DNA of 33,940 nucleotides from Mariprofundaceae bacterium. GTDB lineage: Bacteria > Pseudomonadota > Zetaproteobacteria > Mariprofundales > Mariprofundaceae. Below the pieces are notes generated by a model. It did not search any database and was not told where the DNA came from. It saw nothing but the letters and a program-made list of their open reading frames with translations. The stretch covers positions 1 to 33,940 of the forward strand of contig WFNX01000027.1 of NCBI GenBank assembly GCA_015488375.1, read 5' to 3'. Of the stretch, positions 19,407-22,695 are shown piece by piece; the first letter of the stretch is position 1; the number at the start of each line of letters is the position of its first letter. Both the position numbers and the translations under genes were made by a program.

Positions 19407-19439
19407 ATAAAAAAGGGGCCGCCCGAAAGGCAGCCCCCG
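19407..19439 (-). terminator. Rho-independent terminator of the ribosomal protein operon
   Basis: Reading the minus strand, a GC-rich hairpin (GGGGCTGCC/GGCGGCCCC with one mismatch, loop TTTCG) is followed by TTTTTTATT. It lies 20 bases after the rplQ stop and ends the long minus-strand run that includes tuf through rplQ. Confidence 0.88.
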
Positions 19440-19459: not shown

Positions 19460-19849
19460 TCAGCTTTCCGCTTCGTCCGTTTCCCCACCGGCCGGCGTTT
19501 CAACCAGCTCGATCACTGCCATCGGCGCCGCATCACCGGCCCGGAAGCCTGTCTTGATAATGCGCGTATAGCCACCCGGACGATCGGCAAAGGCCGGTGC
19601 CACATCGGCAAACAGATGATCAACGATCGGGCGATAACGCAGTTTGGCCAGCGCCTGACGACGGGCATGCAAATCACCGCGTTTGCCAAGCGTAATGAGT
19701 TTTTCAACATAAGGACGAACGGCACGTGCCTTGGCAGCCGTCGTTTCAATACGTCCATGTTCCAGCAATGCCGTGGCCAGGTTGGCCAGTACAGCACGAC
19801 GATGTCCGGTGGGCAGCCCCAGCGATCCGCGATGCTTACGGTGTCTCAT
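19460..19849 (-). CDS. rplQ: 50S ribosomal protein L17
   Basis: L17 is a large-subunit protein near the exit tunnel. The 129-residue protein begins [11 protein letters not shown] and continues [26 protein letters not shown], a standard L17, with a short acidic tail. Its own ATG at 19849 has a good AGGAG site six bases upstream. In this sequence the upstream rpoA frame runs into it without a stop, so L17 could be made both separately and as the tail of an alpha fusion. Confidence 0.96.
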
Positions 19850-19872
19850 GTTATCTCCTCTTAATCCTCGGC

Positions 19873-20836
19873 TCAGCCTTCCGCTTCTTCCTGCGGCGGC
19901 CAGTTCTCCAGTTCCATGCTGAAGATTCATCTTCTCAAGCACTTCCTTGATTTCAGTCAGCGATTTGCGGCCGAAATTCGGCGTACGCAGCATTTCCTGT
20001 TCGGTGCGCTGAACCAGATCGCCGACGCGGAAAATATCATCACTCTTCAGGCAGTTCATCGAACGTACCGACAGATCCAGGTGATCGATCGGCTGTGCCA
20101 GCAGTTCTTCCAGCTCGTGATTATCTTCCTCAACCACTTCGCCTTCATCCACGGCCGTGAAATCGGCAAAGACCACCAGCTGTTCCTTGATAATGCGCGC
20201 CGCCTCGCCAATGGCTTCTTCCGGCGTCAGTGAGCCGTCTGTCTCAATTTCCATGATCAGCTTGTCATAGTTCGTCTTCTGGCCGACTCGCGCCTGCTCA
20301 ACACGCGTGGCAACACGGTGTACCGGCGAGAAGGATGCATCCAGCAACAAGGTCCCCACCGGACGCTCATCCTGTTCACGCTCGGTTGCGGGCACATAGC
20401 CGCGGCCCTTTTTAAGGGTCGCCTCGAACTTCAGCGCGCCGTCTTCGTTCAGATGCGCCAGCACCATATCCGGGTTCAAAACCTGCACGCCGGCCGGACA
20501 CTGGATATCACCGGCCGTCACAATGGCAGGGCCCTTAACGTCCAGCTGAACCTGTGCTTCATCATTGTTTTCCATGCGGAACGACACTTCCTTGAGCACC
20601 AGCATGATATCCAGCACATCCTCGCGGACGCCCTTGATGGTATCGAACTCGTGCATCACGCCGTCGAACTTGACGGAAGTGATGGCCGCGCCGGTCAGCG
20701 ATGACAGCAGCATCCGCCGCAGGCTGTTACCGATGGTCGTGCCATGGCCGCGTTCCAGCGGCTCGAAAGTGATCTTTGCAGAACGACCCGGGATTTTTTC
20801 CTCAATGGTAATGCTACGTGGCTTGATAAGATTCAT
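19873..20836 (-). CDS. rpoA: DNA-directed RNA polymerase subunit alpha, frame disrupted near its C-terminus
   Basis: Alpha dimerises to start core polymerase assembly, and its C-terminal domain binds UP elements and activators. The N-terminal domain is complete ([33 protein letters not shown]). The C-terminal domain has [11 protein letters not shown], where Arg258 matches E. coli Arg265 that contacts DNA, and [17 protein letters not shown]. The frame then shifts after Gln306, just before the conserved LGMxLENWPP tail, which is found out of frame. The end given here is the TGA of that out-of-frame tail; read straight through, the ORF continues into rplQ. The residues affected correspond to part of the E. 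coli 287 determinant (Gly315, Arg317). Confidence 0.9.
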
Positions 20837-22332: not shown

Positions 22333-22446
22333 TTATCCTTGGCGCTGTTTGTGACGGGGGTTTTCGCAAATAATACGAACCACGCCCTTGCGTCGAATCA
22401 CGCGACACTTGTTACACATTTTCTTTACTGATGCACGGACTTTCAC
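22333..22446 (-). CDS. rpmJ: 50S ribosomal protein L36 (below ORF-track size)
   Basis: This 37-codon gene is absent from the track. It starts with GTG after TAAGGAG and encodes [19 protein letters not shown] followed by [18 protein letters not shown]. Cys11, Cys14, Cys27 and His32 form the zinc ribbon of the ordinary 37-residue L36. Its place between infA and rpsM is the expected one. Confidence 0.96.
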
Positions 22447-22476: not shown

Positions 22477-22695
22477 CTACTTTTCGCGGTAGCTGATGCG
22501 ACCGCGGGACAGGTCATAGGGTGAAATTTCCACCGTTACCTTATCCCCGGGCAAAATACGAATATAATATTTACGCATCTTGCCTGAAATGGTGCACAAT
22601 AATTCGTGCCCGTTTTCGAGTTTCACCTTAAACATGGCATTGGGAAGTTTCTCCACAACCTCGCCGGTCATTTCAATAATATCTTCCTTGGCCAT
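22477..22695 (-). CDS. infA: Translation initiation factor IF-1
   Basis: IF-1 binds the ribosomal A site during initiation. The 72-residue protein is a single S1-type OB fold, [20 protein letters not shown] through [18 protein letters not shown] to [13 protein letters not shown], the standard length and sequence. Its start is one base after the adk stop codon, so the two are closely coupled. Confidence 0.98.

Follow-up and report, generated by a model that had tools for sequence, protein, structure and literature searches.

The RNA polymerase alpha-subunit gene (rpoA) in the window, by which we mean the whole 33,940-nt stretch of DNA that was analyzed, carried a frame-breaking 5-nt gap near its end that was private to this sequence and that left alpha and ribosomal protein L17 (rplQ) in a single open reading frame (ORF). 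We consider it highly probable (about 0.85) that the gap stems from a fault in consensus or assembly, or else from a mutation of very recent origin that has not been selected, and that the fusion is incidental. Our judgement leans toward an error in the consensus or assembly of the draft genome; a true deletion that arose very recently in the cells sampled, free of selection, seems to us rather unlikely.

The window is one contig of a draft genome from an uncultured member of the Mariprofundaceae (Zetaproteobacteria) related to iron bacteria, of 1.78 Mb in 157 contigs (the window being contig C27), with an estimated contamination of 2.97%, and its nearest relatives among named records were Zetaproteobacteria and Mariprofundaceae MAGs. 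Alpha, the alpha C-terminal domain (CTD) and L17 were each present in one copy, and a second alpha, CTD or L17 able to compensate was not found in this assembly (estimated completeness 86.8%). The gene order was that of the ordinary alpha operon (rpsM-rpsK-rpsD-rpoA-rplQ), and the alpha N-terminal domain (NTD), the CTD core and L17 all matched Pfam; unlike the ordinary operon, the window had the 5-nt gap, which shifts the alpha tail and its stop and places alpha and L17 in one ORF. Between adk and rpsM, short ORFs resembling rpmJ (L36) and infA (IF-1) were located at 22333-22446 and 22477-22695.

The fused frame was as the sequence-only reading had described it, with rpoA running in frame into rplQ: alpha reads to EVLEKMNLQ, is followed by the linker, and gives way to L17 from MRHRKHRG (Table). 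In the resulting ORF, three alpha domains were complete and above cut-off, PF01193 (residues 25-220), PF01000 (55-170) and PF03118 (237-302), and L17 was full-length (PF01196, residues 350-445, model positions 2-97 of 97). The same reading had placed the end of the alpha tail in the neighboring frame, at a TGA 23 bases before the L17 start, and this was also the case (TGA at 19875..19873, with the rplQ ATG 23 nt downstream).

Table. Features of the rpoA-rplQ region in the window
Feature	Position	Strand	Basis
Single ORF of alpha, linker and L17, 458 aa	19460..20836	-	ORF translation, Pfam; stop-to-stop frame 462 aa
rpoA, frame undisturbed as far as CAG (aligned E. coli residue 313)	19919..20836	-	NTD and Pfam CTD complete
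AAT (Asn) at near-invariant Gly codon (E. coli G311), near the gap	19925..19927	-	sequence; relatives' tails
Junction lacking 5 nt that same-genus relatives have	19919..19920	-	window compared with L003, L004, L008
Linker, 23 residues (69 nt)	19850..19918	-	ORF translation; open in 39% of shuffles
Alpha tail, intact but out of frame (14 residues and stop)	19873..19917	-	sequence; relative comparison
rplQ Shine-Dalgarno AGGAG, 5 nt before ATG	19855..19859	-	direct sequence reading
rplQ (L17) with its own ATG (19849..19847)	19460..19849	-	ORF translation, Pfam
Probable intrinsic terminator 3' of rplQ (GC-rich stem, then T run)	19410..19438	-	direct sequence reading

The five missing bases fell between CTTCA and GCATGG: where the window read CTTCAGCATGG, relatives from its genus had CTTCATCTCGGCATG or CTTCATCTTGGAATG, longer by 5 bases, and the alignment therefore bore out the earlier claim that five bases were missing between CAG and ATG. 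For comparison with the displaced tail of the window, the tail of the same-genus locus L008 was MKLDNWPPQEDAEA, followed by its stop. In ungapped alignment to the E. coli chain of 329 residues (10ma_G, 242-315), NLQHG of the window was matched to GLSLG, the last residue of which is number 315, such that G315, R317 and all later positions are replaced, and the numbering in the earlier statement that positions matching Gly315 and Arg317 would be lost was thus correct. Close to the gap, the codon equivalent to that of Gly311 was almost always Gly across the 48 distinct tails from relatives, with Asn in L029 and Asp in L031. Two unusual changes, the 5-nt gap and the Gly-to-Asn change, were therefore located within about 10 bases, which is compatible with a local consensus fault or with a single complex mutation; Asn or Asp at this position was also seen in relatives with intact alpha. 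A 6-bp perfect inverted repeat (GAAGAT-GA-ATCTTC, window 19916-19935) abutted the gap, and equally good repeats occurred in 4.5% of 30-nt windows here; as a weak clue, the repeat could have favored a deletion or a hairpin artefact.

Comparison of rpoA across relatives, which had been proposed as a check, found intact genes throughout and the gap in the window alone. The comparison set consisted of 48 distinct zetaproteobacterial rpoA tails located by motif, and in all of these, as in the same-genus genomes G001-G003, the alpha tail was in frame and its stop preceded rplQ; L014 and L035, two loci from one genome, were missed by the motif script, and their tail, read from the alignment, also ended in a stop. 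In the window, the conserved post-domain tail and stop were there but out of frame. The L17 frame was open back to the LGM codon in none of the 48 relative tails, their linkers being closed, and, of 70 zetaproteobacterial genomes in which L17 was matched, the window alone had an L17-containing open frame of 462 aa, against 55-198 aa in all the others. Among the matches listed from a sample of 200 genomes of the phylum, a single further long frame over L17 appeared, in G203 (563 aa; L252, 822..2513, minus strand). This was a shadow frame that ran through rpoA into rplQ while alpha was intact in its own frame, and G203 was rejected as a second alpha-L17 fusion. A fusion common to any independent relative was consequently not found among the 48 tails, the 70 zetaproteobacterial genomes and the phylum-sample matches listed. 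In the collection of papers searched, none dealt with an rpoA-rplQ fusion; the two genes have been grouped by neighborhood (PMC9514032).

The frequency of other frame breaks in the assembly was gauged by a census of genes from congener G002 against 0.66 Mb of the source assembly, giving 359 comparisons. Fifteen were flagged as frameshift candidates and none resembled a true internal shift, in a census that is blind to shifts in approximately the last 20 codons and would therefore have missed the rpoA gap itself. Inspected by eye, the flagged cases seemed to be of two kinds, shadow frames on the antisense strand and gene starts within stop-to-stop ORFs; in the one examined in detail (L147/L232) the break lay exactly at the gene start. 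We therefore rejected the notion of an indel-ridden assembly, no convincing other internal frameshift having emerged from the comparisons with G002, and take the rpoA gap to be an isolated event. The otherwise clean assembly counts against our preferred explanation, as does the gap itself, which at 5 nt is unlike the usual single-base error. Separately, one 3.1-kb contig of the source assembly (L113; G000:C2, 1592-3038) encoded proteins with 95-100% identity to those of G002 (L139), compared with about 85% for alpha; this contig may be mis-binned or reflect a recent transfer.

With respect to the age of the gap, alpha upstream of it is, as judged from its codons, under normal purifying selection, with identities to congeners of 0.89-0.91, 0.92 and 0.44-0.48 at codon positions 1, 2 and 3, respectively. 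Despite third-position identity of only 44-48%, the displaced tail still matched relatives and had not decayed, from which it follows that the gap is either very recent or not real. An evolved fusion would be expected to show a decayed tail or to have lost the start signals downstream, and here the tail, the AGGAG and the rplQ ATG were all intact. The comparisons with relatives support the earlier suggestion that the sequence either changed very recently or is in error. When the 69-nt linker was shuffled with its own base composition kept, 39% of the shuffled versions stayed open; hence a gap at this site would fairly often yield an in-frame fusion, and the open frame can be explained without selection.

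Our preferred explanation would thus run as follows: the gap shifts alpha into the frame of rplQ, in which by chance no stop falls within the next 23 codons, and an incidental alpha-L17 ORF results. Should the deletion be real, ribosomes translating alpha would be expected to pass the rplQ start and produce some alpha-L17, while free L17 would still be made from the Shine-Dalgarno and ATG of rplQ, and alpha would retain the NTD and the core of the CTD as modelled by Pfam and lose approximately residues 314-329 (E. coli numbering). A further point against our preferred explanation is that every Pfam-modelled domain is kept, so that a viable cell with this allele is conceivable.

That the deletion is real and also fixed in the species, with the tail lost and alpha-L17 tolerated (neutral or mildly harmful) while free L17 is still made, is in our view unlikely. 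It accords with the single copies of alpha and L17, the lack of another convincing internal frameshift in the compared stretches, and the completeness of the NTD, CTD core and L17, and laboratory-evolved E. coli has acquired changes at R317 of alpha (PMC6389913), which indicates that the region can change; against this, the deletion was absent from every relative compared, the alpha tail is conserved across the class, and the displaced tail lacks decay. Restoration of that tail by programmed +1 ribosomal frameshifting, which would produce a near-normal alpha two residues short, draws on the correct tail and stop still being encoded in the shifted frame. However, a zero-frame pause stop and a prfB-like site were absent, with no slippery or pause site at 19910-19935, RNA structure was ordinary (fold z-score -0.63), and relatives offered no counterpart, such that we rejected this candidate and assign it almost no probability.

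The sequence-only reading had also raised the prospect that the fusion tethers a ribosomal protein to polymerase, and this part was not supported. We regard it as very unlikely that alpha-L17 truly exists as a biologically significant protein, and likewise that alpha and L17 are truly one protein, giving a polymerase with a ribosomal protein attached to its CTD and without the tail that activators contact in E. coli. A fusion selected for covalent coupling of RNA polymerase and ribosome via L17 would account for the open frame and for a complete L17 and an alpha complete except for its tail, and is nevertheless highly improbable, because a single draft genome alone carries it, its displaced tail is undecayed, the rplQ start signals are retained, and the linker would be open by chance as often as in the shuffles above. 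The stoichiometry is also awkward, as there is one L17 per ribosome and two alphas per polymerase.

Natural fusions of RNA polymerase subunits exist, for example rpoB-rpoC in Helicobacter and Wolbachia, which are clade-wide and join two polymerase subunits. These and the window are alike in that adjacent machinery genes lie in one ORF; unlike them, the arrangement in the window is private, has a ribosomal protein as the partner of the polymerase subunit, and retains the displaced tail in undecayed form. Shadow frames such as that of G203 would mislead automatic frame-length screens for fusions, and the present case illustrates how two essential genes can look cleanly fused because of one small gap in draft sequence. 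If the fusion were true, polymerase and ribosome would be linked covalently, and the role of the alpha tail in activation would have been put to a natural test.
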